This document shows positions 611 to 23,959 of a stretch of DNA of 44,203 nucleotides, piece after piece (position 1 is the stretch's first letter; every line of letters starts with the position of its first letter). This DNA is from a virus: positions 1 to 44,203 of the IMG/VR virus record IMGVR_UViG_3300030388_001677. One strand, 5' to 3'. The notes under the pieces are model-generated. The model was not told the origin of the DNA. It saw only the letters and a list, made by a program, of their open reading frames with translations, and did no database searches. The translations under genes were made by a program, and so were the position numbers.

Positions 611-1042
611 ATGAAAAGACAAGATTTCAACCAAATGATGAAGGATTCATTTGGAGACAGAGTGACAAACATTCCTTCAAAAACAGTAGTAAAATATATA
701 GATGAACAGTTGTTAATAGCAGAATTTATGGAAACATACATTGTTCCAGACAATCAGTTAATAGCAGAATTTATGGAGTTAGAAACAGAAATATTTTCTG
801 GAATTCTACACTACTACCACAGAGAGTATGACAGTGGAAGTTGGTACAAATTAGATGAATTATCTTATAACGATAGTTGGGATTGGCTAATGCCTGTAAT
901 TGAGAAGATAGGAACTCATACTTTAAGTTCTACAATAGAAATGTTAGCTGAGTACTACTATAAAGATGGAGATAATCAAGATGGATTAGAAGGTATTGAG
1001 GAATTCCACAAAGCAGTAGTATTTTATATTAAAAACAGATAG
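611..1042 (+). CDS. Hypothetical protein with an internal tandem duplication
   Basis: 143 residues, not recognised; acidic and rich in Tyr and Trp. A 15-codon unit is duplicated in frame near residues 34-63: QLLIAEFMETYIVPD is followed by NQLIAEFMELETEIF. The DNA keeps a 21-bp perfect repeat, so the duplication looks recent. The next gene starts 3 nt after the stop, which indicates an operon. Function unknown. Confidence 0.75.
   Translation: MKRQDFNQMMKDSFGDRVTNIPSKTVVKYIDEQLLIAEFMETYIVPDNQLIAEFMELETEIFSGILHYYHREYDSGSWYKLDELSYNDSWDWLMPVIEKIGTHTLSSTIEMLAEYYYKDGDNQDGLEGIEEFHKAVVFYIKNR
712..777 (+). repeat. 21-bp direct repeat, 45-bp period
   Basis: The 21 bp at 712-732 recur exactly at 757-777. 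The 45-nt period keeps the frame and duplicates IAEFME in the encoded protein. Both copies begin GTTAATAGCAGAATTT. Confidence 0.9.
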
Positions 1043-1044
1043 AT

Positions 1045-1278
1045 ATGGAAGAAACTACAGACATACAAATAGGAGGTGTTACTTTGATAGTATCATACAC
1101 CTATGAGAAGGAAGAAGACAGCACCTGGTTCTATATCGGCTCTGCTGCTGAAGTAACGATAGAGACTATTTTTATAGAAGATAGTCTCATAGATCTATAC
1201 GAATTATTAGAGACATCAAGCTATAAATTTATCGTTGAATTAGAAGATATAATAATAGAAAAACACCAAAATAGATAA
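1045..1278 (+). CDS. Small acidic hypothetical protein
   Basis: 77 residues, not recognised. The sequence alternates beta-type stretches (IQIGGVTLIVSYTY) with acidic ones, so a small beta-rich cytoplasmic fold is plausible. It sits tightly between neighbours on the same strand (3 nt after the preceding stop). An antisense frame across its 3' end (1221-1406) is judged a shadow because this frame fits the operon spacing. Confidence 0.65.
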   Translation: MEETTDIQIGGVTLIVSYTYEKEEDSTWFYIGSAAEVTIETIFIEDSLIDLYELLETSSYKFIVELEDIIIEKHQNR

Positions 1279-1281
1279 CTT

Positions 1282-1416
1282 ATGAAAGAAAAAAAACCAA
1301 GACAATATCGCTCAAGACAAGGGCGTTCAGACAGAAAATATGCAGAGAGTTTAATTGTATTAACGATTGCAGCTGCAGGCTTATTTATAATAACAATAAT
1401 AATCATTTTAACTTAA
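1282..1416 (+). CDS. Tiny single-pass membrane protein
   Basis: A 44-residue frame from ATG 1282 to TAA 1414-1416. A basic N-terminus (MKEKKPRQYRSRQGRSDRK) is followed by one hydrophobic helix, about residues 24-43 (LIVLTIAAAGLFIITIIIIL). Positive-inside topology would leave the N-terminus in the cytoplasm. It lies 3 nt after the preceding stop and 4 nt before the next ATG, so it fits the operon exactly. Phages use such peptides for lysis, superinfection exclusion or membrane takeover; the sequence does not show which. Confidence 0.65.
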   Translation: MKEKKPRQYRSRQGRSDRKYAESLIVLTIAAAGLFIITIIIILT

Positions 1417-1420
1417 AATT

Positions 1421-1648
1421 ATGGCATACTTAGAAACACAAAAAGACAGAGACTTTAACAGAATAACATCTCTAATGGGAGACTACATGGAGTCTCAAAA
1501 AACAATCAAAACCATGAAGAGAGACATGGAAGATTTAAAGACCAGGATAAAAGAAATGCTTGACTGGAGCGACAGGATTGGTAGTGATGAAATTCACGAG
1601 TTAAATCAATTCTTATTATGTATTAACAAAGCAATTAAAAACAATTAA
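1421..1648 (+). CDS. Small coiled-coil hypothetical protein
   Basis: 75 residues, almost entirely helical. Charged heptad-like segments lie around residues 20-50 (ESQKTIKTMKRDMEDLKTRI). No membrane segment or catalytic motif is visible. It lies between two tiny membrane-protein genes and might act with them, but this is only positional inference. Confidence 0.65.
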   Translation: MAYLETQKDRDFNRITSLMGDYMESQKTIKTMKRDMEDLKTRIKEMLDWSDRIGSDEIHELNQFLLCINKAIKNN

Positions 1649-1650
1649 AC

Positions 1651-1761
1651 ATGGGATATACAAAAGAATATTTAAAAAAAGACCCAAACAACTGGAAGTG
1701 GTTAATTTGTTTTTATACAATAGCTTTAGTAGTATGTTTAATTTTATCTATACAATTTTGA
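1651..1761 (+). CDS. Tiny single-pass membrane protein
   Basis: A 36-residue frame starting 2 nt after the preceding stop and ending at TGA 1759-1761. A polar N-terminus (MGYTKEYLKKDPNNWKW) precedes one hydrophobic helix at about residues 18-36 (LICFYTIALVVCLILSIQF). It is the last gene before the intergenic hairpin. Function unknown. Confidence 0.6.
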   Translation: MGYTKEYLKKDPNNWKWLICFYTIALVVCLILSIQF

Positions 1762-1808
1762 GTTTAGAATTAAGACATAATAAATTAGGAATTAATCGTT
1801 AAATAGTA

Positions 1809-1816
1809 TAAATTTG
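1809..1816 (+). promoter_or_regulatory. Candidate Bacteroidetes -7 box
   Basis: TAAATTTG matches the TAnnTTTG -7 element of Bacteroidetes housekeeping promoters. It lies in a non-coding gap upstream of the operon beginning at 1898. No good -33 TTTG is visible at the expected spacing, so support is limited. Confidence 0.4.
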
Positions 1817-1839
1817 TACTGTTGTTGTGCATGTTGATT

Positions 1840-1876
1840 CCACTGCCACGCTATGAGAATAGCGTGGTTTTGGTGG
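1840..1876 (+). terminator. Intergenic hairpin, terminator or 5' UTR structure
   Basis: A perfect 9-bp stem, CCACGCTAT (1846-1854) and ATAGCGTGG (1859-1867), encloses a GAGA tetraloop. CCAC at 1840-1843 can pair with GTGG at 1873-1876 to extend it. Only TTTT follows the inner stem. It may end the upstream small-gene operon, or structure the leader of the operon at 1898 if the -7 box at 1809 is used. Confidence 0.6.
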
Positions 1877-1897
1877 TAAAATTCAAAATCAAATTAT

Positions 1898-2236
1898 ATG
1901 CCTACAAAAATAAAACACTGGACTACTAACTCTACAGAATCAGTGATTGAAACATCAAGTGACACTGAGTTTTTGATTGAAGAAATTGGTCAAGATATAA
2001 TCAAGTTACTTAAAAGCAAAAATAAAGCTTACGGAAATACAGCAAACAATCCTCCTCAAATATTTTCTAAACTTTCTGCTAAGGAAGGAATATTAGCAAG
2101 AATTGATGATAAGTTGTCCAGGATTACTAAGTTAGGATTTGACAATAACGATAGCGAAGACACTTTAAAAGATTTAATAGGATATCTTATTTTATTAAAA
2201 GTACAAATTAGAATAGAGGAAAACACAAACTCTTAA
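1898..2236 (+). CDS. DUF1599-like nucleotide-metabolism protein
   Basis: 112 residues. KAYGN at 43-47, RIDDKLSRI at 68-76 and EDTLKDLIGYLILL at 87-100 match, from memory, the pattern of DUF1599 (nucleotide modification associated domain 1). That is an all-helical family related in style to MazG/dUTPase-like NTP pyrophosphohydrolases and found in many phages. A role in controlling nucleotide pools or base modification is likely by family. It opens the replication operon after the hairpin at 1840-1876. No base-modification enzyme was seen in this window. Confidence 0.7.
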   Translation: MPTKIKHWTTNSTESVIETSSDTEFLIEEIGQDIIKLLKSKNKAYGNTANNPPQIFSKLSAKEGILARIDDKLSRITKLGFDNNDSEDTLKDLIGYLILLKVQIRIEENTNS

Positions 2237-2256
2237 ATTCAAAATAACATAAACAA

Positions 2257-2553
2257 ATGAAAGATTTTTTAGACTATGCAAATTCAGTAGCCGAAGAGTT
2301 CCATGTCACAATGGACTCAATATTTGAAAAAAACAAACGTCCAATGTTTGTGGAGGCACGACAGATGTTGTATTTATTATGCAGAGAGAAACCAATTAGA
2401 ATTTCTTATATACAACATTACTTAAAAGAGCAAGGTTATGATGTATCTCATACTACTATTATGTATAATTATGAGAAAGCAAAAACAAAAGTTTCAAAAG
2501 ACAAGTCATTCAAAGACATCTTTAATAAATTAAAAAAGAAGCATGTGGAATGA
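2257..2553 (+). CDS. DnaA domain IV-like DNA-binding protein
   Basis: 98 residues. Residues 30-80 resemble the C-terminal DNA-binding domain of DnaA: EARQMLYLLCRE as the first conserved helix, then a helix-turn-helix ending VSHTTIMYNYEKAK, comparable with the DnaA signature around HTTV. The AAA+ domain is absent, so the protein can bind DNA but not act as a full initiator. Its place ahead of the recombination and replication genes suggests origin recognition or transcription control. Its last 11 nt overlap the next gene. Confidence 0.65.
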   Translation: MKDFLDYANSVAEEFHVTMDSIFEKNKRPMFVEARQMLYLLCREKPIRISYIQHYLKEQGYDVSHTTIMYNYEKAKTKVSKDKSFKDIFNKLKKKHVE

Positions 2554-2956
2554 AATAGATTATTTTACAATTCCTCAAGTTTGGGAACAAGCGATAACTG
2601 ACCCAAGGTCAGTAGTACAAAATCTACCTAAAGGCATATCTATAATTGCTAATGGAGTTAAACTAATGAAGTTTCAAGAAAACATTGAAATGTTTAACAT
2701 GAATAAAGGTGGGGATTATTTTAAAGAATTGGATGAGGATGAATATGCTTTGTTTCACGAAGGTGGCTGGAAGGTTGGGTTAATAAAATTAGCTATTTCT
2801 AATTGTTTATTCAAGTTAGATTTAATTGAAAAACGAATTCAAAATGAAGTTAACACTCGTAAAAACGATAAGCACATTCAAAACTTAAAAAATCGTAGAG
2901 AGAAAATACTAAAGAAGTATACTACGCATCAAACTAAATTAAATAAAATCAAATGA
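2543..2956 (+). CDS. Hypothetical protein in the recombination operon
   Basis: 137 residues, not recognised. The N-terminal half is mixed (WEQAITDPRSVVQNLP), and the C-terminal half, about residues 90-137, is basic and helical, with coiled-coil character. It overlaps both neighbours by a few nucleotides (11 nt upstream, 4 nt ATGA downstream), so translation is probably coupled with the DnaA-like and annealing proteins. Confidence 0.7.
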   Translation: MWNEIDYFTIPQVWEQAITDPRSVVQNLPKGISIIANGVKLMKFQENIEMFNMNKGGDYFKELDEDEYALFHEGGWKVGLIKLAISNCLFKLDLIEKRIQNEVNTRKNDKHIQNLKNRREKILKKYTTHQTKLNKIK

Positions 2957-3633
2957 ACAAAATGGAAAAACAGACAAATTATTTTGAAGAGTTGGCAAAA
3001 ATCAACATCAATGACAAAGTACAAAAAAAGGGTAATTTCCCTTACTTATCTTGGGCGCATGCTTGGGCACAATTTAAATTAAAGCACGCTGATGCAAACA
3101 GAAAAGTTTATGAATGGAAAGTAAATCCACAAGATGAAAGTGGTAGAAATTATTTTGATGATGGAAAAACTGCATGGGTAAAAGTTGGCACTTGCATTGA
3201 GGGTTATGACAACACAAGAGATAGAAATCCTCTTGGACAAGAACACATTGATCAATTGCCAATTACAGACTTTAGAAACCAAAGTATTAAAATAGAAAAG
3301 ATTACTTCTATGGACGTTAATACTTCTATACAAAGGTCTACTGCTAAATCTATTGCAATGCATGGATTAGGGCTGTCATTATGGGTAGGAGAAGATATAA
3401 GGGCTATTGGTGGAGAAGATGACGTGGTTATCCAGCCGAAAGTTACAAAAGCTGTAACAAAAGCTACGCTTACGTTAAAGTCAGATAAGATTGAAAGAAT
3501 TTTATCATTTATAGCTGACAACAAATCTCAAGGTTTGTCCTGGTGTATTGAGCAAATCAAAACTAAATACAATTTGACTCCAAAGATTGAAAAAACTTTT
3601 GAGGCAGAATTTAAAAAACTTCAAACAAAATGA
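2953..3633 (+). CDS. DUF1071-type single-strand annealing protein
   Basis: 226 residues. The N-terminus (NYFEELAKININDKVQKKG then FPYLSWAHAWAQFK) and the later STAKSIAMHGLGLSLW are hallmarks, from memory, of DUF1071, a family of phage recombinases that anneal complementary single strands. It is immediately followed, with an ATGA overlap, by a PDDEXK exonuclease. This is the usual exonuclease-annealase pairing for double-strand break repair and concatemer formation. The C-terminal 60 residues are variable and Lys-rich, possibly contacting SSB or exonuclease. Confidence 0.8.
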   Translation: MNKMEKQTNYFEELAKININDKVQKKGNFPYLSWAHAWAQFKLKHADANRKVYEWKVNPQDESGRNYFDDGKTAWVKVGTCIEGYDNTRDRNPLGQEHIDQLPITDFRNQSIKIEKITSMDVNTSIQRSTAKSIAMHGLGLSLWVGEDIRAIGGEDDVVIQPKVTKAVTKATLTLKSDKIERILSFIADNKSQGLSWCIEQIKTKYNLTPKIEKTFEAEFKKLQTK

Positions 3634-4421
3634 TAAATCCATTTGAAACAAAATCTCAAGTTTTAGAGAAGTTGCAAGATGATGAATTGTATTATGGGTC
3701 TTATGGTAAACAATATTTGTCAAATTCAGACATATTTAAATTACTAAAAGACCCAACACAATTTGGAAAAAAACAAGAGGAAACTCTTCCAATGGTACAA
3801 GGGAGATACTTTCACACTGCAATGCTTGAGCCTGAAAAACTAAAAGACTTTAAAATTATAGATGCCTCAACAAGAAGCACTAAGCTTTATAAAGAACAAA
3901 ATGATGGTAATCTTTTACTTCTTGCAAAAGAAAAAATGCATTTAGATTACATGATTTCTAAAATGAAAGGTAGTTTAGTTATGTATGATTTAATATATGC
4001 AAAAGGAAATGAATATGAGATTCCTAACATTGAAAGTATTATGGGTCACATGTGGAAGGGAAAAGCAGATATTATAAATAATAATAGCTTCGAAGTAGAG
4101 ATTAATGGAGAGGTTAAATTGTTTCCTGATGGTGCTATTGTTGACATAAAAACAAGTTCCGATAGCTCAAAATTTATGTACTCAGCTCGGACTTATAATT
4201 ACGATAGTCAGGCATATATTTATCAACGAATGTTTAACAAACCTATGATTTTTCTGGTAATTTGTAAGGCAACAAACAAGTTATCTATTTACGATTGTTC
4301 ACAAGAATTTATACGATTAGGACAAGAAAAAGTAGAAAAAGCAACAGAGGTTTATAATATATTTTTTAGTGATGACAAAAGCAAAAACATTAATAGTTAC
4401 ATTCATACGCAAACTTTATAG
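3630..4421 (+). CDS. RecE/YqaJ-like PDDEXK exonuclease
   Basis: 263 residues. Visible motifs are YLSNSD at 29-34, GRYFHTAMLEPE at 58-69 (motif with H62 and E67), GKAD at 144-147, VDIKT at 171-175 (D172 and K174) and QAYIYQ at 194-199. This is the PDDEXK_1 (DUF3799) architecture of phage RecE-like 5'-3' exonucleases. It would resect double-stranded ends to give single strands for the annealing protein encoded just upstream (4-nt overlap). Length is normal for a stand-alone catalytic domain. Confidence 0.8.
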   Translation: MINPFETKSQVLEKLQDDELYYGSYGKQYLSNSDIFKLLKDPTQFGKKQEETLPMVQGRYFHTAMLEPEKLKDFKIIDASTRSTKLYKEQNDGNLLLLAKEKMHLDYMISKMKGSLVMYDLIYAKGNEYEIPNIESIMGHMWKGKADIINNNSFEVEINGEVKLFPDGAIVDIKTSSDSSKFMYSARTYNYDSQAYIYQRMFNKPMIFLVICKATNKLSIYDCSQEFIRLGQEKVEKATEVYNIFFSDDKSKNINSYIHTQTL

Positions 4422-4572
4422 TTATATAATAACTAAATATGAAATAAGAATAGATCAAAACATTTTGTGGATGGAAGTTCCAACCATTTGCAAAAGCCGA
4501 AAAGATAAGGATGAAATTATCTTAACTGCAATAGAACATTTGGAGCAAACAATTAAAATTAATAAATTATGA
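4372..4572 (+). CDS. Small basic hypothetical protein
   Basis: 66 residues from ATG 4372 (a GTG lies one codon earlier). Its first 50 nt overlap the end of the exonuclease gene in another frame, and its stop overlaps the next start (ATGA), which supports real translation. Basic and beta-like; not recognised. Part of the recombination operon. Confidence 0.55.
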   Translation: MTKAKTLIVTFIRKLYSYIITKYEIRIDQNILWMEVPTICKSRKDKDEIILTAIEHLEQTIKINKL

Positions 4573-4850
4573 GTAAAGAAACACCAATTTACGTGGGGAA
4601 CGGAACAGAGAAATTTGATGGCAATTTGATAGAAATATCAGTATGTCTTTCTGAACTATCACAAGAACATCGATTTGAGTATGATGGAAAGTGGTATGTA
4701 AAATTAAAAGTGAGTAAAAGAAGAGAAGTTGACCAATATGGTAGAACACATTCTGTCGCTATTAATCAGTACAAACCAAAAGAAGAGGAAACAAAGAGTA
4801 AAGTAGAGAGTAAAAAAGAGCCTGAAGAAGGAGCTGATTTACCATTTTAG
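4569..4850 (+). CDS. Probable small single-stranded DNA-binding protein
   Basis: 93 residues. The first 70 are beta-rich (IYVGNGTEKFDG, KWYVKLKVSKRREVDQYGR), compatible with a compact OB-like fold. A Lys/Glu-rich flexible tail follows and ends EEGADLPF. The acidic tip with terminal Pro-Phe is typical of SSB proteins and recruits replication partners. No database comparison was possible. It is the last gene of the annealase-exonuclease operon, just before a strong terminator. Confidence 0.55.
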   Translation: MSKETPIYVGNGTEKFDGNLIEISVCLSELSQEHRFEYDGKWYVKLKVSKRREVDQYGRTHSVAINQYKPKEEETKSKVESKKEPEEGADLPF

Positions 4851-4860
4851 TCTCTAATTT

Positions 4861-4900
4861 AACACACGAAAGGGGGGGCTACCCCCTTTTCTTATGTGTT
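4861..4900 (+). terminator. Rho-independent terminator
   Basis: AAAGGGGG (4869-4876) pairs with CCCCCTTT (4882-4889) around a GGCTA loop. Outer AACACA (4861-4866) pairs with TGTGTT (4895-4900). A T-run is included in the descending arm. It lies 10 nt after the stop of the SSB-like gene and closes that operon. Confidence 0.75.
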
Positions 4901-5070
4901 TAATATGTTTGTTTTAATTTAAATTATACAACTATATAGAATTCGACAACAATTATTATTTATATATACATATATTTACTATTTTTTGAACATAATGAAC
5001 ATAAAAGAAAGTATTAACCTTATTTATAAGGGTAAAGAGTGAATTTTTAATAAAATCAAATCAACATAAA
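4901..5070 (+). promoter_or_regulatory. AT-rich control region before primase-helicase
   Basis: A non-coding gap of about 170 nt, nearly all A/T. It holds three GAACATAA octamers: 4988-4995, 4997-5004 and 5073-5080, the last just inside the next gene. It also holds an inverted repeat at 5014-5035, where CCTTAT (5018-5023) pairs with ATAAGG (5026-5031). These features suit an operator or an origin-proximal element. No convincing -33/-7 pair was recognised. Confidence 0.4.
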
Positions 5071-7479
5071 ATGAACATAACTATATTCAAAGACATAAAA
5101 GATACCTCACAACCATTCTACAGACCAGTTGAGGTAATATTACAAAGAATACAAGAAGGAGCATCTAAAGATTTAGTAAAAAAAATCAGAGGTACAAAAG
5201 ACAAGGAACAAAGAAACAAATACAAGCAAGGTTTACCAGCGGTGTGTTTTTCAGGAGTATTTACTAAACGCTCTGACAGTTCTATAACAAAACACAGCGG
5301 TTTAATATGCTTAGACTTTGATGGATATCCATCTAACAAAGAAATGTTACAAGAAAAAGAACGCCTATCAAAAAACAAATATATTTATTCTGCTTTTATA
5401 TCTCCAAGTGGTAATGGAATAAAAGCATTAGTTAAAATACCAGCTGATGCAGACTTACATAAAACTTTCTTTTTAAGTTTAGAAAAAAGTTTAAACTCAT
5501 TATATTTTGACAAAACCTCTAAAAACATTTCCAGGGTTTGTTATGAGTCATATGACCCATTAATTTATATCAATGAAAACTCCAGCATTTGGGATAAAAT
5601 AGAAGAACAAGAATATAATGCTGTGATAAAAAAGGTAGATATTCCAACTATTCCAGTCACTGATGAAAACAAAATAGTAGAGATTTTAGTAAAGTGGTGG
5701 GAGAAAAAATATCCCATGAATGAAGGAGAGAGAAACCACAACACTTATGTGTTAGCTTCAGCATTTAATGATTTTGGTGTTAATCAAACCCTGGCAGAGT
5801 ATATTCTAAATAATTATTCTTCCAGGAATTTTACTCAAGATGAAATTAAAAGAACAGTAACCTCTGCATACGCTAACAAACAAAACTTTGGGTCTAAATA
5901 TTATGAGGACGAGGAAAAGGTAAATCAAATAAAGCATAAATTAAAAAGAGGCGTATCAAAAAAAGAAATCCGAACTCAATTGGAGGAGTCGAATATCGAG
6001 GTCGGAACAATAGAAAAAGTAATTACTCGACTCGAAGAAGAACAATCCAACAGTAAGTTTTGGACTAAAAACGAGAAAGGTACAGTTAGAATAGTGCACA
6101 TACTCTTTAAGTATTTTTTAGAAGAGAATGGGTTTTACAAGTTTAATCCAGTTGGAAGTAAGAATTATATTTTTGTCAGAGTAACAAACAATCTTATAGA
6201 TCACACAACTGAAAAAGAAATTAAAGACTTTATACTTGATTACCTATTAGAAATAGATGACACCACTGTATATGATTATTTTGCTGAAAACACAAGATAC
6301 TTTAGAGAAGAATTTCTTACGCTTCTTTCATCAATAGATGTTTATTTTATCGAGGATAATAAAAACACTTCGTATCTGTATTATAAAAATGGTGCAGTTA
6401 AGATTACTCACAATGATATTAAAATTATAGACTATTTAGATATTGGAGGTTATGTTTGGAAAGACCATGTTATAGACAGAACTTTTATACGATGTGAGTC
6501 TACTGATTGTGATTATAGAACTTTCATAAGAAACATTTGTGGTAATGATCATAGTCGTGAAAGCTCCATGAGGTCTACCATAGGTTACTTACTACATGGA
6601 TGGAAAAACTTATCCTATTGTCCAGCCGTTATCCTTAATGATGAAGTCATCTCTGACTTCCCACAAGGTGGTTCTGGAAAAGGATTGTATATGAATGCAC
6701 TGGCTCACATGAAGAAGTTAGTAGTGATAGATGGAAAGTCGTTTAATTTTGAGAAAAGTTTTGCTTATCAATTAGTTTCAGCCGACACGCAGATTCTTTG
6801 TTTTGATGATGTAAAAAAGAATTTTGATTTTGAAAGATTGTTTTCCGTAGTGACAGAAGGATTAACATTGGAGAAAAAAAACAAGGATGCAATTAAAATA
6901 CCTTTTGCTAAATCGCCTAAAGTGGCCATTACTACCAATTATGCTATAAAAGGAAAAGGTAATTCATTTGAGAGAAGGAAATGGGAGTTGGAGTTAGCAC
7001 ATTTTTATACGAAAGACTTTACTCCACTGCAAGAATTTGGAAAATTAATGTTTGGAGAATGGAATGATGAAGAATGGTGCCAGTTTGATAATTATATGAT
7101 TGAGTGTTTACAAACTTATTTAGAGCATGGTTTAATAAAAAGTGATTTTGTCAATCTAAAAATTAGAAAACTATCTGCTGAGTCATGTCATGAGTTTATA
7201 GAATGGTGCGGAATTATTGGTGGCAGCGCAAATGAAAAGCTGGTGGCATATCAAAAATTATATAAGAATGATTTATATATGGATTTTGTTGAAGAGAATC
7301 CAGACTTTGCTCCTAAATCTAAAATGACAGTATCACGAACTAAATTTAACAAATGGCTTTTGGCCTTCAGTGATTATAAATTTGAGTGCGCTCCTGAAGA
7401 AGGTAGAGATGGACCAGGGAAGTGGTTAATATTCAGAAACAAACAAAGGTTAGAGACAAACGGATTCTTAGATATTTAG
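5071..7479 (+). CDS. Primase / SF3 helicase fusion (VirE-N-like)
   Basis: 802 residues. The N-terminus resembles BT4734/VirE-N primase-type domains: ICLDFDG with D81 and D83 as likely metal ligands, SPSGNGIKALVKI about 20 residues later, and a conserved RVCYESYDP. A helical PriCT-like segment spans about 205-270. The C-terminal ATPase has Walker A GGSGKG (533-538), Walker B ILCFDD (575-580), sensor ITTN (620-623) and Arg finger FERRKW (633-638). It probably primes and unwinds the phage replication fork. The residue after the Walker A lysine is Gly rather than Ser/Thr. Confidence 0.8.
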   Translation: MNITIFKDIKDTSQPFYRPVEVILQRIQEGASKDLVKKIRGTKDKEQRNKYKQGLPAVCFSGVFTKRSDSSITKHSGLICLDFDGYPSNKEMLQEKERLSKNKYIYSAFISPSGNGIKALVKIPADADLHKTFFLSLEKSLNSLYFDKTSKNISRVCYESYDPLIYINENSSIWDKIEEQEYNAVIKKVDIPTIPVTDENKIVEILVKWWEKKYPMNEGERNHNTYVLASAFNDFGVNQTLAEYILNNYSSRNFTQDEIKRTVTSAYANKQNFGSKYYEDEEKVNQIKHKLKRGVSKKEIRTQLEESNIEVGTIEKVITRLEEEQSNSKFWTKNEKGTVRIVHILFKYFLEENGFYKFNPVGSKNYIFVRVTNNLIDHTTEKEIKDFILDYLLEIDDTTVYDYFAENTRYFREEFLTLLSSIDVYFIEDNKNTSYLYYKNGAVKITHNDIKIIDYLDIGGYVWKDHVIDRTFIRCESTDCDYRTFIRNICGNDHSRESSMRSTIGYLLHGWKNLSYCPAVILNDEVISDFPQGGSGKGLYMNALAHMKKLVVIDGKSFNFEKSFAYQLVSADTQILCFDDVKKNFDFERLFSVVTEGLTLEKKNKDAIKIPFAKSPKVAITTNYAIKGKGNSFERRKWELELAHFYTKDFTPLQEFGKLMFGEWNDEEWCQFDNYMIECLQTYLEHGLIKSDFVNLKIRKLSAESCHEFIEWCGIIGGSANEKLVAYQKLYKNDLYMDFVEENPDFAPKSKMTVSRTKFNKWLLAFSDYKFECAPEEGRDGPGKWLIFRNKQRLETNGFLDI

Positions 7480-10674: not shown

Positions 10675-10922
10675 ATATTAATCAGTATCTTTGCAAGTTT
10701 TTTTTCGTAAAGCATTTCAGAACATTTCTCATAGTCTTCTATAGTTGCAAAATAATCTATAAGAATGTCATACACATCCCCTTCTAAAGGAATGTGTTTT
10801 CTTGTGGGATTAAAAATAAATGTAGAAGAAATATTTTTTTTAATTAAATCATCAACAGATAGCTTACCAGTAATTACTAAGTAACTATTAATCATGCAAT
10901 CATGTTGATTAAAATCACTCAT
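10671..10922 (-). CDS. Small acidic hypothetical protein, last late gene
   Basis: 83 residues, not recognised. The C-terminal half (DVYDILIDYFATIEDYEKCSEML) is acidic and helical. It overlaps the end of the 2,973-residue gene by 8 nt, so it is probably translated from the same late transcript, and it is the last gene of that unit. It might be a regulatory or cargo partner of the large protein; this is inferred from position only. Confidence 0.65.
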   Translation of the reverse strand: MSDFNQHDCMINSYLVITGKLSVDDLIKKNISSTFIFNPTRKHIPLEGDVYDILIDYFATIEDYEKCSEMLYEKKLAKILINI

Positions 10923-13900
10923 TTAAATAATATTCGTCCATTAATCTTTTAGTTTCTTCTTTAGTTTTACGAACTTCCTCTTCATATTCTCGTATTTCAT
11001 CTGCATATTCTACTTCATAATCAGCCAAATCTTGTTGTTGTTGTCTGTATTCATCAGGAAAATATCTTTTCATTTCAGCCTCAGTCATTGTTGCTGGTTT
11101 GGGGTTAGATTTTTTCTTCTTTTGTCCTTCACGCACATAATCACCAAAATTAAATAATTTTAATATCATGTCACCCATATTTTTTGTGTCACCAGTTATT
11201 ACATCACTATAATTTTCAAATAATCTTTTTAATTGAGGAGCTGGTATACCACTTAAAGTAGTAAGTTCAAGCCAAAATCTTGTTTCATATTCAGCACTTT
11301 TAACTGGGTCTTTTGTATTATTAAATTGACTCCACAATCTACTTAGTGTTGCAGCTTGTTCAAGTATTGGAATACTTGTAGGCTTATCAGCCCAATACTT
11401 ACCAGTGGCAGTATCTTTAACTGTATTTAATACATCTCCAAGGATAAATAAAGCATTTAAATTACCTAATATTGATGAATACAATATCTCTTCCAAATCA
11501 TCTTCTCTTCTGTCTCTTAATAGTCCTGGAGCACCCATACTTACAAACTTAAATAACGATGGCATAACAAAATGATATGTTGCTAAAGTTCTAAGGTTTT
11601 GCCAGTAAGTTCCTTTACCTTGTTTTTTACCACTTCTAACTAATCTGGAAAAATTTCTGGCTGCAATAATTTCTCTTCTTAAATATTGTTTTGGTGTAGT
11701 TAAAAACATATTAAAAGCACGCTCTAAAGAATTACCTGTTTGATAGTAATCTTTGTCTTGAAGATCATAAGACTGTTGTGTTCTTAATGTATCATCTTCA
11801 AATCGTTTTATAGCATAATCAATAGCATCTTGATCATTTGCATTTTCATTTTCTGAAAAATATTGTGCTTTGTAAAATTTATAATTAGGTAATCCACCCA
11901 ACATAATTGCTCCTTTATCTCCAAGCATTGTAAAGGACATTAACATATTAGTTAATGTGTTTTGTGTTTCGCGATTAAAATATTTGTTAATTAAACTGTT
12001 CTGAGCATCTAATCTTTGATATGTTTTATCTTGATATGTTTCAATTACACGACTAATTGGTTTACCATATCTATCTTGCAGAACTACTGAATTACTCATT
12101 ATTTCTTTAAGATCAGAATTAATGCTACCTATTGACCCTGCAGCATATTTAATCCAATTATCATATCCTATATCATTTCCATAAGTAACAAAAGATGTCA
12201 TTTGTTTTAATATCAATGTAGGGTTAAATCCTAATCTTGATAATAAAAAAGTGTTATTAAAGAAATTAACTAATTCCATTCCTTTTTGATGTTTAGCACC
12301 TTTGTTAGCTATTTTCTCTATTTGATCTTGAATGTAATCATTAATTTTAGCTCCATATTTTTCATTAATTACTTCTTTAACAGCGGAGTCTTGAAATATT
12401 TTATTTATATTTTTAATTGGTAATGCATACGCGGCAAAATATTCCATGTCACGAGTATAATTAAGTAACGCATCTAACGCATTAAATTGTCCAATTGGAT
12501 TTGCATTTTCCATTCTAAATTTTGTACTTGCTGCAGAAACATTAGTTATCCACGACTTGTTACCTTCAGAACTTAATAAATCTAAACCAACAATGTTATC
12601 CTCTCCTTTTCTATATAATCTTCCTGCATAATATTTATTCCAAGGCATATCAGTTCTATATACCTTATTGTAAGTTTCATTATAATAATCATATTGAGAA
12701 GGATAAAATTCATTTACCATCCAATCACCTAAATCTATAAGTTTGTCCCCTAATTTAGATTCTATATCTTCTTTTATTCTTGATGAATATTCACTTTCAA
12801 TTTTAAATCCTTTATTAAGATAAGCCAATACTCCTGAAAAATCAGTTGGCATAAATGTTTCATCAAAAGAAGCTAATAAAGAAGGATCTCCACCTTGATT
12901 TCTATAATATAATAACTCATTTTTAGATATCATTATATTATTATTATTCATTTCTTCGTTTATAGCTTGAAGCAAAACTACTTTTTCACCAGATTCCATC
13001 TTAGAATCTTTTTCTATTCTTGTTTTTTCGTTTTCTAATAAAGTTTGTTTAGCTTCATTTATTAATAAACTTTCATCTTGATTAGAATTTTTTCTATTAA
13101 CCTTAGTCCATCCTTTACCAAACAACTCTGTCATCTTTATATTTAAAGCCAACTCATGATTAAGCATTCGACCTTTATACAATCTTGTTGCTTTACGAAT
13201 TTCCTGACCTACAACTTCTTGAGCAAAACCACCGAATAATTCTCCAGTAGATAATGAAACTCTATCCATTAAACCAGTCAAATCTTCAGCTGAACCTAAA
13301 ACATAAGATTCTGCAGCTCTAACACTATTTTTAATTCCTAATGCTAATCTTTTTCGTAAAGTAATAGGATTTAATTTTCCTCTTTCATTATCTACTTTTA
13401 TTTTCTTTTTTAAATCTCTAAATTTTTGTAATACATCTGCTTGAGTAATATTTTTTTTCCCAGAATCTTTTAATTCTTGTAATGGATCAATTATTACTCC
13501 CATTTCTTTTAACATACCAAGAGCATTATTCATGTATTTAGTAGAATCTTTTAAAAGTTGTAATTGAAGCCCTGTTACACCTATATCTTGCAATTGATTT
13601 AAACCAAATAAAATTTGCTCGTAAGCATTTGTTTTTTTACTATTAGTTTGTTCCATTAACAACGTATTATTGTATGCTAATGCTATTGTTAAATCAGCTA
13701 CAAATTGTGCTTCTTCAGGAGTTAATGTTTTATCAATTGTAGTTTCAACTCCAGAAATAGTGATTTTTTCCGTTTCTAATTTAGTAATTTCATTTAATAA
13801 TTTTTCGTTTTTATCGTTTATTTCATCAGCAGTAGTGTTTTTAGATTTTTCTATTTTACCTGGTTGGCCTTTTTTGCCAGGAACATAACCAATAATGTTT

Positions 13901-16900
13901 TTTTGTATTGCTCTTATTCTATCTCTTACTACTGTAGTAACTCCTACACCTTTTAATCTTCCAGACATTACTGCTTGAAATTGTTTATTCAATATTTCTA
14001 TTATTGAAGACTCTAAACGCGTATTAGTTATTGTCGTAACTTTATCAGTTATTTCTTCAACAATAGCTTTAAAGTTAGTTTTGTCTACCGCATTAACTTT
14101 ATCTATTAAGCTTATATAAGCAGATTTATTTTGTGGATCACGAGGCATTACACTTCTTATGTATTGTCTTAGTTTTCTTTGTATTCTTTTTGCCTCTCCT
14201 TGTGCCCATTTGATATCACGAATATTTTTGTTTAGATTAAATATTCTTAAACCATTACGAGCATTGGTGTCTGGAGATAAATAATTTAAAATATCTACTT
14301 CCATTGCCTGTTGTTGAGAAGTTCTTCTTGAACCTTTACCACCTTCATTTACATATTCAGGTAGAGTATACATATACTCTATAGTTTCATTTACTAAATC
14401 TTCATTACTAACTTTGTTTTTTCTTTTTCGATTGTTAGCTGTTAGTAATTTTTTATAATATTCATTTATTTTATTTAACAAAGGAACTCCTTTTTTTAAA
14501 CCACCCTCAATGTTTGTAAAACTTTTAGGAAAAGTGGTAAATAAATCAGTGTCTATTTTTAAAGCGTCTTTAATTTCTTTAATAGAAAACCCTTTTCGTT
14601 TCATATAATAAGACAATTCGCCATTGTTAAATCCAGCCTCTCTACCTGTAATTACAATATTCATGGCATCACTCTCGTTATCTAATAATTGATATTTGTT
14701 TTTTCTTGACTTCTTAGCTAAATTTTTAGGAATAACTCTACTTCCATTAGGTCTACTAACAAATACACCTCCGCCACCTCCATAATTACCTAATGCTGCT
14801 CTTTTAGCTACGTATCCAGGGCCAACTCTATTCCATTGTCTTTGGATATCTGACACCATTGCTTGAGCACTATAGTAACCACTATCTGGCATGTATGTTT
14901 GATTTATTAAATCTAATTCTGTAGTTATTTTTTGTTCTTTATTTTTTCTTTTAGATTTAGGAGCTTGAATTTTTCTAACTCCACTTCCGTAAGGAGCTAC
15001 AACTTGACTTTGTTGTGATGCAGATAAAGATTCTTCATAATTTTCTCTCATGACTTCAGGCATAAGATCAAATGCGTTTATTTTTTTATTAGGCACTCCT
15101 AAGACTTCTCCTAAAATATCATTTTGATAAGTTGAGTGATTAGAGTTTGCTTTTACACCTTTTGGTTTTAATACCAATAAAACATCATTTAGTTCAAAAT
15201 TATTTTCTTTATAGAAACCATCTCTTAAACTTTCAATATCTATAAATCCATCAGATTCACTTATTAATTTATGCAATTCTGTGTTTGGTGTGTTTTCTTG
15301 TGCAATAATACCAGCTAAGAAGCTTTTTCTTGTTGTATTTGATTTTGCATTTTTAATTGCATCCCAGCTATCGTATTTTTCTACAATATCTCTTACAACT
15401 TTTATTGGTTGTTTATTAAAATTGTTTATGTTATTTTTAAACGTATTAAAATCACCTAATTTAGAAGTGAATATATCAAAAACATTTTTATTAGCTAATA
15501 AACTTGCTTGAGGTGAACCACTAATAATAAATATATAATCAGCATTTTTTGCGTTTTTTTCTAAAGAACTTTCTTTTAATCCACTTGCCCAAACAATATC
15601 ATTATCTTTATTCTCTTGAACAAAAGGATAACTTGGACCTCCATCTATAACATTACCATTTACTTCACCAACACCTAATTGATCAGCAACCCAGAACCAT
15701 ACGTTTTGGTTTTTACTTTCTATATCATTAAGTAATGGGGTAATATCTAATTCGTTTTCAGGACTTATTAATGAGTTGACATAATCACCATCAAAATCTA
15801 CTTTTTGTTCTTTGTTTTTTCTTTCATCGGTATCTAATACAATAGTAGTTGGATTTCCAATAGGTGCTGTTCCATAGCTATCTAACTCTGCTGTAATATC
15901 AGAAATTATTTTAACATCACTTTCAACTATCTCTTCACCTCTTCTTAATTTACCTGAAACAAGATTTAAAAAATCTATAACTTCTTCATCTGATTTAGAT
16001 AAAGTTTCAGAAAATGGAGTTTTAATACCTATTTTTTTAAAAAATCTATTAAGTAATTTAATTAATTTGTTTTGCGCAGGTTTTTTTAATGAACCATATT
16101 CAGCAGCTAACACTCCCATTAATTCAGAAAATGCTTCTTCACTTTTATCTTCTGACTCATACTTACTAATAAACTTTTCTATTCTTTCGTTTAAGTTACC
16201 TTCTTGAGCAGGAAGAATTTTCTTTAAACTAATTAGCATTCTATTAAAAACTGCTGTTGTTTTAGCATCAGTAGAAATTAAAGCATTTGAAATAGCATGC
16301 ACTACTTCATGATAAGGAGTACTTGTTGTAGCCTCCTCCATATTAATATGAATTGTTTGAGAAGTACTATTATAAAAACCTTTCGTAAGTTTCCCAGTGG
16401 CTTTTTTAAATTGTTCACTATTATCATGTATAACAAATCTAACCTTTGGTAAATATTTGTTTACAGATTTAGCAGCTTTTTTAGCATTTTTTATTAAAGT
16501 AGTTTGAAAGCTACTGCTTCTTTTATTAGGATTTTTAGATTTGTTTCTACTAATGTTAGGTGTAACAATTTCGTTTGTTTCAGTATTTTCATCAAAAAAC
16601 GAATCTATATCTTCTTTGGTTTCAGTGCTTATTTCCTCTTCCGTTTCATTCTCATTTTCAAGTGCATTGGTTTTCTTTGGCTTTCCTTTGATCTTTTTGG
16701 GACCTTGTTCGGAAGATTCAGATTTGGAGTCTCCTTTTCCCATTTCGCTGCTATTTGTGGAAGATTCTGATGCATCCACTTTCGTTGTGCTTTGCTTCTG
16801 AAGGGCATCTTGTTTTGTTTTAATTTGTTCTGGAGTGGGATTTTCCACACCCTCTTCATTTAATTCATTTATTGCATCTTCTTCTGAGACAAAAGTTGGT

Positions 16901-19836
16901 AAATCACTTTGTTCTTTTTTTAATTTAGCTTTATTGTCCGCCTCTTTAGATCCTATTTCTCCTAATCTAACTTTTATTGCATCTAACTGAGTTTGTTTAT
17001 CTTGATATGTACCCAAATCAGGGTCCATACCTTCCATCTCATTTGTTAGTCTATTTTTTTTAAAAATTAATTGTAATGCTTCTACTTTTTGTGATTCAGA
17101 TAAATCACTTGCTACATCTAAATCAGTTGAAGCTTTTCTTAATATATTAAAATTTAAAAGTCTTGTTTTACCTTCAATTTTACTTATAAGACCTTGAGCT
17201 ACATCTGTATCATTTTTTGCTTCAAATCCTTTAACATATGTTGGATCATTTTTTATTTGATTAAACATTTCAATCATCTGATTGGTTATGGTTTGTCCAG
17301 GGTTTTTACCATAGATACCATCCATAATAGCATAAGGAGAAGCTAAAGCAAATCCTCCTACAGCTTCTGCTGCTGCAGAATGTCCAACTTGTTTCCAGTA
17401 TTCCATACTCCAGGCTTCTGGATTTTTAAATAAATCCTTTCCTTTTATCGAATTGTAAATGTCTTTTCCTCCAATATCAGTAATTTCTTGTAAAGCACCA
17501 GTTTCGGCTTCTGACAAAGCGGCTGGGGTTACTCTTGATGCAAATCTAAAAGCTCCACTTTTTGCAATACCACGAGTAGCTGAGTTGTCAAGAACATTTA
17601 AAACTGCTTTTCTAAACATAGCTGGAGTTGCACCTTTTGGAAGTTTAGCTAAAGCCTCTGAAGTTATTTTAGTAATAAACCCTGTAGCAGACTTGCCTGT
17701 TAATAGATTTCTAAAACCTACTGACTCTAATATACCAGAGGTAATAGCTAAAGGTAAAACGATAGCTTTTTTTTCGTTTTCACTTATCCATTCAAACTCA
17801 GGATTTAATTCCATTTGTTCGTTTAATTTATCTGCATGTAATAAAGCCATTCCAATTAAAGTTGATTGACGATACCCATCAGTTGCCCAGGCTTTTATAG
17901 CTTGACCCATTCGTTTCATAAACTTTTTACTTTGTTTATTTCCTTTGGGTATTTTTTTTTGTTTTATAGCCTGTACAATCATAGGTATTAAAGCTGGAAG
18001 AGACTCTGCAGCTCCATATAATCCAGTCATTACAATACCTGAAGCTCCGCCTTGATTCATTTGAGCTTGAACTCTTTCTTCACTTACATTTGCTACACCT
18101 ATTAAATCTTGAAAAAAAGATCTTGATTCATCTTTAAAACTTTTTTTCTTTTTTTTAACTTTTTGATCTCCTACTAAATCATCTATTTGTTCAAATATGT
18201 TTGATATTCCAAATACAGGAGGAGCTGAAACCCATTCATCTTCTTCTATACTATAAAGTAAAGGTTTATCATATTTCATACGTGGCTGACTCATTCCGAT
18301 ACCATCTGAACCCCAATCATATCTAATACCTTTTCTTATGTCATAAACACCATTAGGCAATCGACTTAATCTTGGGTCATCTTTAACAATTAAATACTCA
18401 CCTTGTAAAGCATTTCCTTTTAAATCTTTAGGTTTAGCTCCTAAATCTGTTCCAGTTCGAATACTTAATGAAGAAATATCTTCAATCCCTTCTTTCTCTA
18501 CAAGAGAATTTATATCACTTTGGTCTTTTAAGCTATTTGACCATTCTGTAAATCCTTCTATTGATTCTTTAGCCGATTCAGGAACAAGAACACCTTTGTA
18601 ACCTTCATATACTCTAATAAATTCAGCTCTATATTCATCCTCGTCCATTCCATAATCATTGCCAGCAATACCTTGTGCAACATTGTAAAACAAATCTAAA
18701 CCTGTCCCACCAATAGTTGTAAGTGCAGAATCAAAATAACCAACAAATTTATTATAAAAACCACTTATTGCGGTTCCAACAGCGGTTCCATCTTGTTCTT
18801 TCATTCTAACATAGTTGCCTACAGCAACATCAACATCTTTGGCATTATCACTAAATGCGCTAAATTGTTGATTAAGAACATTACCTTGTTTAGCTAAATA
18901 TCTACCTTCTTCTAATTCTAATTGATATGCCTCTGCAAATTCAGGGTCTTGAAACATTGATGCTTCTGCATTTGAAAAACGCAACATCTGTTCTTCGTGA
19001 TTACTTTTTCTATCTAAATATTTACTAAACCTTGAAGAAATTGATGCAGAGTTTTTTTGTATAGCTTTTATATCATTAAGTCTTGCTTCAGCACTAAAGT
19101 ACTTTTTTTTAGAAGCATCATAATTTGCTTGAAGATTACTAACTACCGAAGCATCTTGATTTTTTCTTAAAAAATCTCTAAGAGCTCTTGCTTCTTGAGA
19201 ATTATCTCCTGCAAACCATGAGTCTATTTTAAATTGTTCTTGAGCACCAGTTTTAGTTGCAGTAACCGTTACATTATCAAAAACTCCAGATTCTTCAAAT
19301 TCAAAACCATAATCATTAAAATGATAGTTTAGTCTATTGACAACAGGCTCTTCATCTCTTGTAAATAAGTTTTTGTTTATAAAAGCTAATGATCTTTCAA
19401 AAGGTGTTGCATCAGCATCATAAGTAATTGTATCATCTTCACCAATAGAAGTTAAATCAAAAGTTCCACCTTCCTCAGTTTCATCATATTTTACATTCTC
19501 TGTAATAGTTTCTGCACCTTCTGTAGGAGTAAGATCTTCATTTACTAATTCATTATTTACAGAGCTATAACTATCTCCCTCAACAATTTCATTTCCTACT
19601 CTTTCTGTAGTTACTTCTTCTACTTCTTCTTCTACTATTGGTGCAGATGCAGAAGTAAATCCTATATCTGATTTAAAAGTTTCTAAATCAGGAATGTCAA
19701 AATTTTCCAACATGCTTTCTCTGAAACGAATTAATTTCGATTCGTCTTGCATATCAACAACAAATTGCTCAAATGGTGGTAAATCAAATATAGATGTACC
19801 GCTTTCGTATAATTTTCTTAATACTTCTTCATTCAT
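10915..19836 (-). CDS. Giant polyvalent virion protein with metallopeptidase motif
   Basis: 2,973 residues, the largest gene. The first 60 residues (LYESGTSIFDLPPFEQF and a second copy-like stretch) match the N-terminal pattern of phage internal or polyvalent proteins. Hydrophobic segments lie near 596-620, 693-708, 2754-2773 and 2783-2803. An acidic, Ser-rich linker (about 1000-1095) precedes a zincin-like domain with HEVVH at 1176-1180. Linkers containing R-K-N-K recur at 1339-1342, 1630-1633, 1711-1714 and 1805-1808. Its place after ejection-type genes suggests it is packaged and delivered with the DNA. Peptidase activity is inferred from the motif only. Confidence 0.8.
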   Translation of the reverse strand: MNEEVLRKLYESGTSIFDLPPFEQFVVDMQDESKLIRFRESMLENFDIPDLETFKSDIGFTSASAPIVEEEVEEVTTERVGNEIVEGDSYSSVNNELVNEDLTPTEGAETITENVKYDETEEGGTFDLTSIGEDDTITYDADATPFERSLAFINKNLFTRDEEPVVNRLNYHFNDYGFEFEESGVFDNVTVTATKTGAQEQFKIDSWFAGDNSQEARALRDFLRKNQDASVVSNLQANYDASKKKYFSAEARLNDIKAIQKNSASISSRFSKYLDRKSNHEEQMLRFSNAEASMFQDPEFAEAYQLELEEGRYLAKQGNVLNQQFSAFSDNAKDVDVAVGNYVRMKEQDGTAVGTAISGFYNKFVGYFDSALTTIGGTGLDLFYNVAQGIAGNDYGMDEDEYRAEFIRVYEGYKGVLVPESAKESIEGFTEWSNSLKDQSDINSLVEKEGIEDISSLSIRTGTDLGAKPKDLKGNALQGEYLIVKDDPRLSRLPNGVYDIRKGIRYDWGSDGIGMSQPRMKYDKPLLYSIEEDEWVSAPPVFGISNIFEQIDDLVGDQKVKKKKKSFKDESRSFFQDLIGVANVSEERVQAQMNQGGASGIVMTGLYGAAESLPALIPMIVQAIKQKKIPKGNKQSKKFMKRMGQAIKAWATDGYRQSTLIGMALLHADKLNEQMELNPEFEWISENEKKAIVLPLAITSGILESVGFRNLLTGKSATGFITKITSEALAKLPKGATPAMFRKAVLNVLDNSATRGIAKSGAFRFASRVTPAALSEAETGALQEITDIGGKDIYNSIKGKDLFKNPEAWSMEYWKQVGHSAAAEAVGGFALASPYAIMDGIYGKNPGQTITNQMIEMFNQIKNDPTYVKGFEAKNDTDVAQGLISKIEGKTRLLNFNILRKASTDLDVASDLSESQKVEALQLIFKKNRLTNEMEGMDPDLGTYQDKQTQLDAIKVRLGEIGSKEADNKAKLKKEQSDLPTFVSEEDAINELNEEGVENPTPEQIKTKQDALQKQSTTKVDASESSTNSSEMGKGDSKSESSEQGPKKIKGKPKKTNALENENETEEEISTETKEDIDSFFDENTETNEIVTPNISRNKSKNPNKRSSSFQTTLIKNAKKAAKSVNKYLPKVRFVIHDNSEQFKKATGKLTKGFYNSTSQTIHINMEEATTSTPYHEVVHAISNALISTDAKTTAVFNRMLISLKKILPAQEGNLNERIEKFISKYESEDKSEEAFSELMGVLAAEYGSLKKPAQNKLIKLLNRFFKKIGIKTPFSETLSKSDEEVIDFLNLVSGKLRRGEEIVESDVKIISDITAELDSYGTAPIGNPTTIVLDTDERKNKEQKVDFDGDYVNSLISPENELDITPLLNDIESKNQNVWFWVADQLGVGEVNGNVIDGGPSYPFVQENKDNDIVWASGLKESSLEKNAKNADYIFIISGSPQASLLANKNVFDIFTSKLGDFNTFKNNINNFNKQPIKVVRDIVEKYDSWDAIKNAKSNTTRKSFLAGIIAQENTPNTELHKLISESDGFIDIESLRDGFYKENNFELNDVLLVLKPKGVKANSNHSTYQNDILGEVLGVPNKKINAFDLMPEVMRENYEESLSASQQSQVVAPYGSGVRKIQAPKSKRKNKEQKITTELDLINQTYMPDSGYYSAQAMVSDIQRQWNRVGPGYVAKRAALGNYGGGGGVFVSRPNGSRVIPKNLAKKSRKNKYQLLDNESDAMNIVITGREAGFNNGELSYYMKRKGFSIKEIKDALKIDTDLFTTFPKSFTNIEGGLKKGVPLLNKINEYYKKLLTANNRKRKNKVSNEDLVNETIEYMYTLPEYVNEGGKGSRRTSQQQAMEVDILNYLSPDTNARNGLRIFNLNKNIRDIKWAQGEAKRIQRKLRQYIRSVMPRDPQNKSAYISLIDKVNAVDKTNFKAIVEEITDKVTTITNTRLESSIIEILNKQFQAVMSGRLKGVGVTTVVRDRIRAIQKNIIGYVPGKKGQPGKIEKSKNTTADEINDKNEKLLNEITKLETEKITISGVETTIDKTLTPEEAQFVADLTIALAYNNTLLMEQTNSKKTNAYEQILFGLNQLQDIGVTGLQLQLLKDSTKYMNNALGMLKEMGVIIDPLQELKDSGKKNITQADVLQKFRDLKKKIKVDNERGKLNPITLRKRLALGIKNSVRAAESYVLGSAEDLTGLMDRVSLSTGELFGGFAQEVVGQEIRKATRLYKGRMLNHELALNIKMTELFGKGWTKVNRKNSNQDESLLINEAKQTLLENEKTRIEKDSKMESGEKVVLLQAINEEMNNNNIMISKNELLYYRNQGGDPSLLASFDETFMPTDFSGVLAYLNKGFKIESEYSSRIKEDIESKLGDKLIDLGDWMVNEFYPSQYDYYNETYNKVYRTDMPWNKYYAGRLYRKGEDNIVGLDLLSSEGNKSWITNVSAASTKFRMENANPIGQFNALDALLNYTRDMEYFAAYALPIKNINKIFQDSAVKEVINEKYGAKINDYIQDQIEKIANKGAKHQKGMELVNFFNNTFLLSRLGFNPTLILKQMTSFVTYGNDIGYDNWIKYAAGSIGSINSDLKEIMSNSVVLQDRYGKPISRVIETYQDKTYQRLDAQNSLINKYFNRETQNTLTNMLMSFTMLGDKGAIMLGGLPNYKFYKAQYFSENENANDQDAIDYAIKRFEDDTLRTQQSYDLQDKDYYQTGNSLERAFNMFLTTPKQYLRREIIAARNFSRLVRSGKKQGKGTYWQNLRTLATYHFVMPSLFKFVSMGAPGLLRDRREDDLEEILYSSILGNLNALFILGDVLNTVKDTATGKYWADKPTSIPILEQAATLSRLWSQFNNTKDPVKSAEYETRFWLELTTLSGIPAPQLKRLFENYSDVITGDTKNMGDMILKLFNFGDYVREGQKKKKSNPKPATMTEAEMKRYFPDEYRQQQQDLADYEVEYADEIREYEEEVRKTKEETKRLMDEYYLNE

Positions 19837-23140: not shown

Positions 23141-23959
23141 CTATGGATAACTTTTCATCACACTACTTCCAACGGAATATAGTTCAACTGGATCAGTAGA
23201 GTTGTTATTAAGAGTAAATTGTAAAAAATATCCACGCGCTCCATGCGATTCAGCAACAGAGTTTTTAATGTACATAATAAATTGACCTGTAGTAGGAATT
23301 GTTTGTCCAGTAGTGTCTACAGTAATACTATATGCTCCATCTACATTACTTATTAAAGTTATAACGCCTGCATTAGTAGGACCATTTGTCGCTATTCCAT
23401 TAACAACAGTAGATGCAAATGCAGTATCTCCTTGGCTTATAATGCCTCCTGGAGGAACTGAAAAAGTTATAACTGTTGCAGCAACTGGTTGCCCAGCTGC
23501 TATAGTTCCAATTCCAAGACCATTAGCTGAACGCTGTCTCCAATTAACTACATTATCATTTGTTCTAAGAAAAGAAAACCATTCGCCTTCTTTTTCTACA
23601 AAATATGTTTCTAACATAGATGCAGGTGTTCCATCTGTAATATCAGTTGATATTGCTGTTGCAGACCATCTTGCTTGGTTAGTATCAGTTACAGTGGTAT
23701 TAGATTCATATGAAAGTGTTTTAAATAACTTTATGTTTTCAGTGGGTTGTGGATTAAAGACACTTGTAATGCTTGAAGCTGTAAAAACACCATAATAAGT
23801 ATTACGATTAGCTCCAGTATTATGTCTAAAAATATTGCCGTTTTTAAATGTATAAAAATAACTATTCATTCCAATCATATATTCAGGAAGAAAAGAATAA
23901 AACGAAGGCCATCCTACAAAAGGTTCGCCTGTTGAATATGTTAATGTATATGCTGGCAT
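23141..23959 (-). CDS. Tail / ring-associated structural protein
   Basis: 272 residues, beta-rich with many Asn, Thr and Gly. The stretch SYFYTFKNGNIFRHN near 33-47 and the ending GARGYFLQFTLNNN...VELYSVGSSV resemble the terminal part of hub/stabilization proteins of crAss-like and related phages (from memory). It lies two genes downstream of the 1,576-residue hub protein and may be a split-off segment of that assembly. No enzymatic motif. Confidence 0.6.
   Translation of the reverse strand: MPAYTLTYSTGEPFVGWPSFYSFLPEYMIGMNSYFYTFKNGNIFRHNTGANRNTYYGVFTASSITSVFNPQPTENIKLFKTLSYESNTTVTDTNQARWSATAISTDITDGTPASMLETYFVEKEGEWFSFLRTNDNVVNWRQRSANGLGIGTIAAGQPVAATVITFSVPPGGIISQGDTAFASTVVNGIATNGPTNAGVITLISNVDGAYSITVDTTGQTIPTTGQFIMYIKNSVAESHGARGYFLQFTLNNNSTDPVELYSVGSSVMKSYP

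Follow-up and report, generated by a model that had tools for sequence, protein, structure and literature searches.

Why does a giant phage protein carry the same short basic string several times over, and what does the string mark? To address this question, we analyzed a 44,203-nucleotide stretch of viral DNA (the window), which is part of a virus record of 50,144 bases. A stop-free open frame encodes a protein of 2,973 residues (Table 1), in which a sequence-only reading had noticed the string R-K-N-K and suggested that it lies between unlike segments as a linker or processing motif. The string is indeed present four times, at residues 1339 (15811-15822), 1630 (14938-14949), 1711 (14695-14706), and 1805 (14413-14424), and the first two copies are extended to RKNKEQK. 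As that reading had stated, the first copy directly follows the metallopeptidase region; all four fall within a 470-residue stretch past the HEVVH sequence.

Table 1. Features of the giant protein and their positions in the window
Feature	Residues	Positions	Strand	Basis
Giant polyvalent protein of putative virion type, 2,973 aa		10915..19836	-	open frame and annotation of relatives
N-terminal duplicated tag, SIFDLPPFEQF / ENFDIPDLETF, 29 residues apart	1-60	19657..19836	-	
N-terminal region, kept in relatives, outside the cargo zone	61-1112	16501..19656	-	segment search
Zincin-like metallopeptidase domain	1113-1335	15832..16500	-	alignments, fold topology
Border motif copy A, RKNKEQK, metallopeptidase / core domain	1339-1345	15802..15822	-	
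Core cargo domain, widely shared, without Pfam match	1346-1629	14950..15801	-	
Border motif copy B, RKNKEQK, core domain / cassette 1	1630-1636	14929..14949	-	
Exchangeable cassette 1, basic (pI ~10), missing or replaced in relatives	1637-1710	14707..14928	-	
Border motif copy C, RKNKYQL, cassette 1 / cassette 2	1711-1717	14686..14706	-	
Cassette 2 domain, common to ~27 relatives	1718-1804	14425..14685	-	segment search
Fourth RKNK, basic patch without Gln, not a border-motif copy	1805-1808	14413..14424	-	
C-terminal region, kept in ~20-25 relatives	1809-2973	10918..14412	-	segment search

The giant gene is flanked by packaging and structural genes (terminase, P22-like portal, and virion genes), and the product of 23141-23959 on the minus strand matches the C-terminal domain of the crassvirus muzzle protein (Pfam PF25729, E 1.2e-8), a match that ties the phage group to crAss-like virions. 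Because of these neighbors and the muzzle-domain match, we assign the window, on its gene content, to a crAss-like podovirus of the Flavobacterium-phage kind. Relatives with phage records include the elemo and Gundel phages, where the giant protein is annotated 'structural protein', a label that fits a putative virion role. Searches of the giant protein or its cargo zone with Pfam, PHROGs, and PADLOC gave nothing useful, and neither an effector domain nor a Pfam 'large polyvalent' domain was recognized in the window protein; the modules found in relatives are a methyltransferase, a SAM lyase, DUF3293, and an L5 gp82-like module. In the relative L002, the giant protein is divided into two ORFs with the break at 16087-16117, and since an ambiguous residue (X) is near the break, an assembly error probably accounts for the split.

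Most relatives (e.g. L023, L045, L055, L063, L064, L065, and L071) begin with a phage-specific duplicated peptide like the one in the first 60 residues of the window protein. The two copies are ~29 to 31 residues apart in the window protein and in L065 (FDLGSY twice) and ~12 to 15 apart in other relatives (PPSDAV, LPSPE, DKKPWEQY, LPKPxDIL), often with KKK[D/E] next. The tag was not found in other ORFs of the loci checked, and a possible role is as a signal for packaging or docking.

The repeated string could be due to chance or composition in the Lys- and Asn-rich protein of an AT-rich phage. The giant protein is 9% Lys and 7.5% Asn, and RKNK is its commonest tetrapeptide. Its composition predicts 0.08 occurrences and a first-order Markov model 0.26, and at least four were reached in 0.02% of simulations, a figure that alone proves little because the string was picked after it had been seen. 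For the fourth RKNK, at the junction of cassette 2 and the C-terminal region, composition is probably the explanation, and we rejected this site as a border copy: it lacks the Gln, it is placed between two helices in a block predicted at pLDDT 91, and the patch is kept where the border motif differs. RKNK is found at this site also in L002, L009, L015, and L020, all of which have RQQ as border motif. Since it is confidently folded and common to relatives with a different border motif, the fourth RKNK is a separate patch, and the surrounding NNRRKNKLS, with which the C-terminal region begins, is shared by the window and these four relatives independently of the border motif.

When the linkers were aligned across homologues, the literal RKNK was not conserved at the borders, and most homologues had their own version there. 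Among the first six homologous proteins, only L002 has R-K-N-K, and it has it at the fourth site, so R-K-N-K was rejected as the conserved unit. These first homologues instead showed a short basic stretch ending in Gln-Lys at both borders of the domain that follows the peptidase, and this stretch recurred elsewhere in the same proteins: KGKQQK, KQRQQK, KGRQQK, and KGRQQK in L002, IKAQK three times in L003, and KKQK in L004. Versions found at borders include REQK, RQQK, RKQ, RFQ, and KAQ. Judged from these alignments, the conserved unit is [R/K]-x-Q-[K/R/I/V/L], its form in the window is RKNK[E/Y]Q at residues 1339, 1630, and 1711, and RKNK is the private version of the window phage. Had the literal RKNK been the search string, the idea would have been wrongly refuted, since the version at the borders is a different one in most homologues.

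To follow the motif more widely, we built a profile of the core domain that lies between the two RKNKEQK copies; it found 64 viral loci, and no match was found in cellular genomes. This unannotated but widespread domain has the signature VWFWVADQLG ... SNHSTYxNxIxGEVVGVP ... VAPYG. Most proteins have a version of their own on its two sides, such as KSREQK/KGREQK (L010), KGRQQK/RGRQQK (L013), PRQRK/PRQRK (L012), RKKQ/RKKQ (L042), and IERFQ/IERFQ (L048). Domain borders were set by searching segments of the window protein against homologues, with the motif not used, and the motif sites coincide with the end of the metallopeptidase, the end of the next domain, and the end of the exchangeable cassette (borders A, B, and C). 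The three homology-defined borders read RKNKEQKV, RKNKEQKI, and RKNKYQLL in the window, GRESKI, GREQLP, and GREQML in L027, GRQSKI, GRQQRD, and GRQQKM in L028, and SRKQ/AREQ/KREQ in L037. The elemo phages of Flavobacterium sp. BAL314, which have this peptidase subtype, show SRFQA, TRQQK, and VRMQK at candidate borders of gp18 (residues 1683, 2079, and 2302). Most relatives with cassette 2 also have the C-terminal region. Where the cassette is missing (L010, L013, and L021), a single motif links the core domain to cassette 2, and where a methyltransferase and a small cassette take its position (L002, L015, and L017), there is a motif at each end.

The fit is poor in L029, L053, and L026, and the borders are unequal in L033 and L068 (RES, RQQ); in the window, copy C amounts to no more than RKNKYQ. 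In L026, KTE is found at all three borders (TKTEKT, VKTEIP, and TKTEVF) in place of R-x-Q, as if the site specificity had shifted. L011, L038, and L066 carry the border motif in tandem ahead of cassette 2 (EKAQRxVDEKAQK).

AlphaFold2 prediction of residues 1100 to 1865 (50 sequences, mean pLDDT 79.7, pTM 0.46) placed copies A, B, and C at or beside weakly predicted linkers. For copy A, the linker has a pLDDT below 50 and the motif is at its edge; copy B falls on a local dip to 63, and copy C is in a stretch below 50 (model residues 614-619). Thus, the proposal that R-K-N-K lies between unlike segments holds by homology borders and model for residues 1339, 1630, and 1711, but not for 1805, which is inside a fold. 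In a model of L009, three of the four RQQ copies are in stretches with pLDDT below 50, while the first, at pLDDT 86, is just past such a stretch. Foldseek gave no match in the PDB at E <= 0.001 and, among viral models, matches to other phage giant proteins only.

The domain upstream of copy A has the features of a zincin-like metallopeptidase. HEVVH occupies residues 1176 to 1180 (16297-16311), and a candidate for the third-ligand Glu is found in EEAFSEL (1233-1239). The HExxH was invariant in alignments of 17 and of 50 rows, and a conserved Glu is present in the second C-terminal helix. The predicted order of helix, three-stranded sheet, and two helices is as described for the metallopeptidases of polyvalent proteins. 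When profiles of the peptidase and of the zone were searched against PDB sequences, the matches were weak and unrelated only.

We then asked whether the two borders of a protein resemble each other more than they resemble the borders of other proteins. Matching of the middle residue by eye was set aside in favor of automatic tests. In a dereplicated set of 23 proteins that have this peptidase subtype, the similarity of border A to border B averaged 21.0 within a protein and 16.2 between proteins (z 5.3), a difference reached in 0 of 50,000 permutations, while z ranged from -1.0 to 2.9 for random windows and from -1.1 to 1.7 for random basic windows. An identical [RK]x[QS] tripeptide was present at both borders in 10 of the 23 proteins, with 2.3 expected. 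An earlier run of the test with 29 proteins gave P 2e-5, and P values in this work overstate independence, even after 65 to 70% dereplication, because the proteins are related.

As a second test of recurrence, we used an independent set. A peptidase-only profile gave 80 loci, with 51 proteins lacking the core domain but having enough sequence, and dereplication to below 65% peptidase identity left 19 proteins; the set was found by a pattern requiring HExxH and so holds no members with a dead peptidase. Per-protein shuffle tests of recurrence were underpowered, and the test was therefore pooled. Over the 900 residues that follow the peptidase, R-x-Q occurred 67 times (34.0 +/- 5.5 expected), and identical within-protein R-x-Q pairs numbered 34 (2.3 +/- 1.8 expected), a count reached in 0 of 2,000 shuffles. 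There was no excess before the peptidase (26 vs 33.7 expected). One protein, L140, contains five copies of RKQ, of which three read DAPQSRKQ. The shuffles, the composition-matched windows, and the independent set reject chance, which is refuted for copies A and B and is extremely improbable as an account of the motif as a whole; the case for copy C comes from its position and from the homologues.

The presence of the motif tracks the type of peptidase. Of 29 dereplicated core-domain proteins, 23 have this peptidase subtype and six have a divergent peptidase (HESSHP or HEGIHP) or no peptidase; border A carries [R/K]xQ in 17 of the 23 and in none of the six (Fisher P 0.002). The corresponding counts at border B were 19 of 23 and 1 of 6 (Fisher P 0.005), and background rates for stretches of that size were 8% and 16%. 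In sequence comparisons the motif also appeared to covary with the peptidase (rho 0.37, vs 0.23 for the core domain), which is only suggestive.

If modules were swapped through short repeated linker DNA, the motif could be a by-product of recombination and its protein sequence would have no role of its own. A few pairs of copies do share 18 to 23 identical bases (L022, L140, and L027), and codons for the same residue were identical at 218 of 339 positions, slightly above the 185 expected. However, the codons differ in most pairs, what the copies share is a protein pattern of three to four residues with free flanks, and the motif is tied to a peptidase subtype. Since the codons of the copies mostly differ, selection has acted on the protein, and the copies are kept mainly at the protein level. 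The codons do not support recombination as the sole cause, which we regard as quite improbable; module exchange via linker DNA may occur in addition but does not explain the pattern.

The motif could also be cut by a protease other than the built-in one, either an unannotated head-maturation protease of the phage or a trypsin-like or periplasmic protease of the host. It is basic and exposed, as trypsin-like host enzymes prefer, and several virion ORFs in the window have no Pfam or PHROG function. In the record, Pfam and PHROG recognized no protease besides the HExxH domain and an S74 tail-fiber chaperone, and no prohead protease gene was matched in the ORFs scanned, several virion ORFs being unannotated. 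(Outside the window, L072 encodes at 309-5960, minus strand, a tail-fiber-like protein of 1,883 residues with a C-terminal Peptidase_S74 intramolecular chaperone.) Against another protease, the motif tracks this peptidase subtype, and it is nearly confined to the giant protein, whereas head-protease sites recur in many head proteins (PMC10052503). A scan of 17 contigs for their own motif gave, outside the giant protein, just one stray match each in L022 and L053, so that in these contigs the motif is not common to several head proteins, as it would be in substrates of the T4 gp21 or phiKZ gp175 type. With a host protease, there would be no reason for the phage-specific middle residue to change at every border together. 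We consider cutting by another protease unlikely.

A further reading, to which we give a small chance, is that the motif remains uncut and is a docking or translocation signal read by one partner that is specific to the phage (among the portal, ring, or ejection proteins) and serves, for instance, stepwise unfolding of the modules at ejection. Phage-specific short motifs can coevolve with a binding partner too, the duplicated N-terminal peptide resembles such a signal, and in the related crAss001 virions the cargo is partially unfolded for ejection through the tail (PMC10172136). Docking leaves unexplained the link to the peptidase subtype, as well as why the copies start at the end of the peptidase domain with no excess before it.

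Taken together, these results reveal a repeated motif, matched within each protein and linked to one peptidase subtype, at borders of the cargo zone. The comparative evidence favors a processing site, as the sequence-only reading had proposed, although the unit is [R/K]-x-Q and not R-K-N-K. As the simplest account of the sequence comparisons and the models, we hypothesize that the giant protein is probably a virion polyprotein and that the motif copies are the cleavage sites by which its HExxH peptidase frees the cargo. That cleavage takes place, at which bond, when, and by this protease, is what we infer from the pattern. The N-terminal part with its duplicated tag and the conserved C-terminal part would flank the cargo zone, in which each module is bounded by a short exposed linker carrying the phage's own [R/K]-x-Q-[K/R/I/V/L]; the metallopeptidase just upstream would recognize the motif and cut at or beside it, either in cis or between copies, while the head matures or once ejection has taken place. 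If the cut follows Gln, the predicted fragments are the N-terminal part with the peptidase (~150 kDa), the core domain (33 kDa), the basic cassette (9 kDa), and cassette 2 with the C-terminal part (144 kDa). New cargo would be gained by insertion of a module together with a motif copy, and cargo could therefore change while processing is kept. MARTX-type multi-effector toxins, which are secreted by bacteria, offer an analogy only: in them an internal protease frees effector domains at repeated interdomain sites, but it is a cysteine protease and the sites are different.

Autoproteolytic processing by the metallopeptidases of polyvalent proteins was proposed in 2017 by Iyer et al. (PMC5512222), and the window protein is like the proteins described there in being very large and multidomain, with an HExxH...E peptidase among variable effector-like modules. 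Unlike in that description, a phage-specific [R/K]-x-Q that goes with one peptidase subtype recurs at its borders. Repeated linkers had been taken as already known in polyvalent proteins, but the word 'linker' does not occur in that paper, the main one on polyvalent proteins, and we found no cleavage site or border motif described there; in the open-license literature, the autoprocessing idea is known and we found no description of the border sites. Counting against self-processing, the virion RNA polymerase of N4, which is also large and polyvalent and has a metallopeptidase, enters the virion without being cut (PMC5512222). As is proposed for the window protein, DdrB and DarA of phage P1 are internal, injected, and proteolytically processed, but in DarA a single cut is made by a separate prohead protease, and for DdrB the processing is assigned to its own peptidase by inference only, and we found no repeated border motif reported in these sources (PMC5512222, PMC12810830). 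As with the head-maturation proteases of T4, phiKZ, and SPN3US, a phage-specific short motif recurs at the (here putative) cleavage sites; in those phages a separate protease acts on many head proteins, mostly removing N-terminal propeptides (PMC10052503), whereas in the window the sites are inside one protein, between cargo modules, and the metallopeptidase is built in. The crAss-like virion cargo proteins (PMC10172136) are similar in that the virion type is related, as the muzzle-domain neighbor indicates, and the cargo is large; the terms 'cleav', 'protease', and 'peptidase' do not occur in that crAss001 structure paper, which describes no cargo processing.

Metallopeptidases are the commonest domain of phage polyvalent proteins, and the border motif offers exact candidate sites for their targets. 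As the motif varies between phages but matches within each, it predicts fragment sizes, provides a rule by which unannotated giant proteins can be divided into modules, and opens self-processing to direct tests. More tentatively, a large group of podoviruses might possess self-cutting giant virion proteins with a phage-private cleavage code, in which the peptidase and all [R/K]-x-Q sites change together; such a code would insulate coinfecting phages from one another, and the linker would act as a plug-in adaptor for injected effectors. If true, self-processing would explain how injected effectors can be exchanged without redesign of their carrier.
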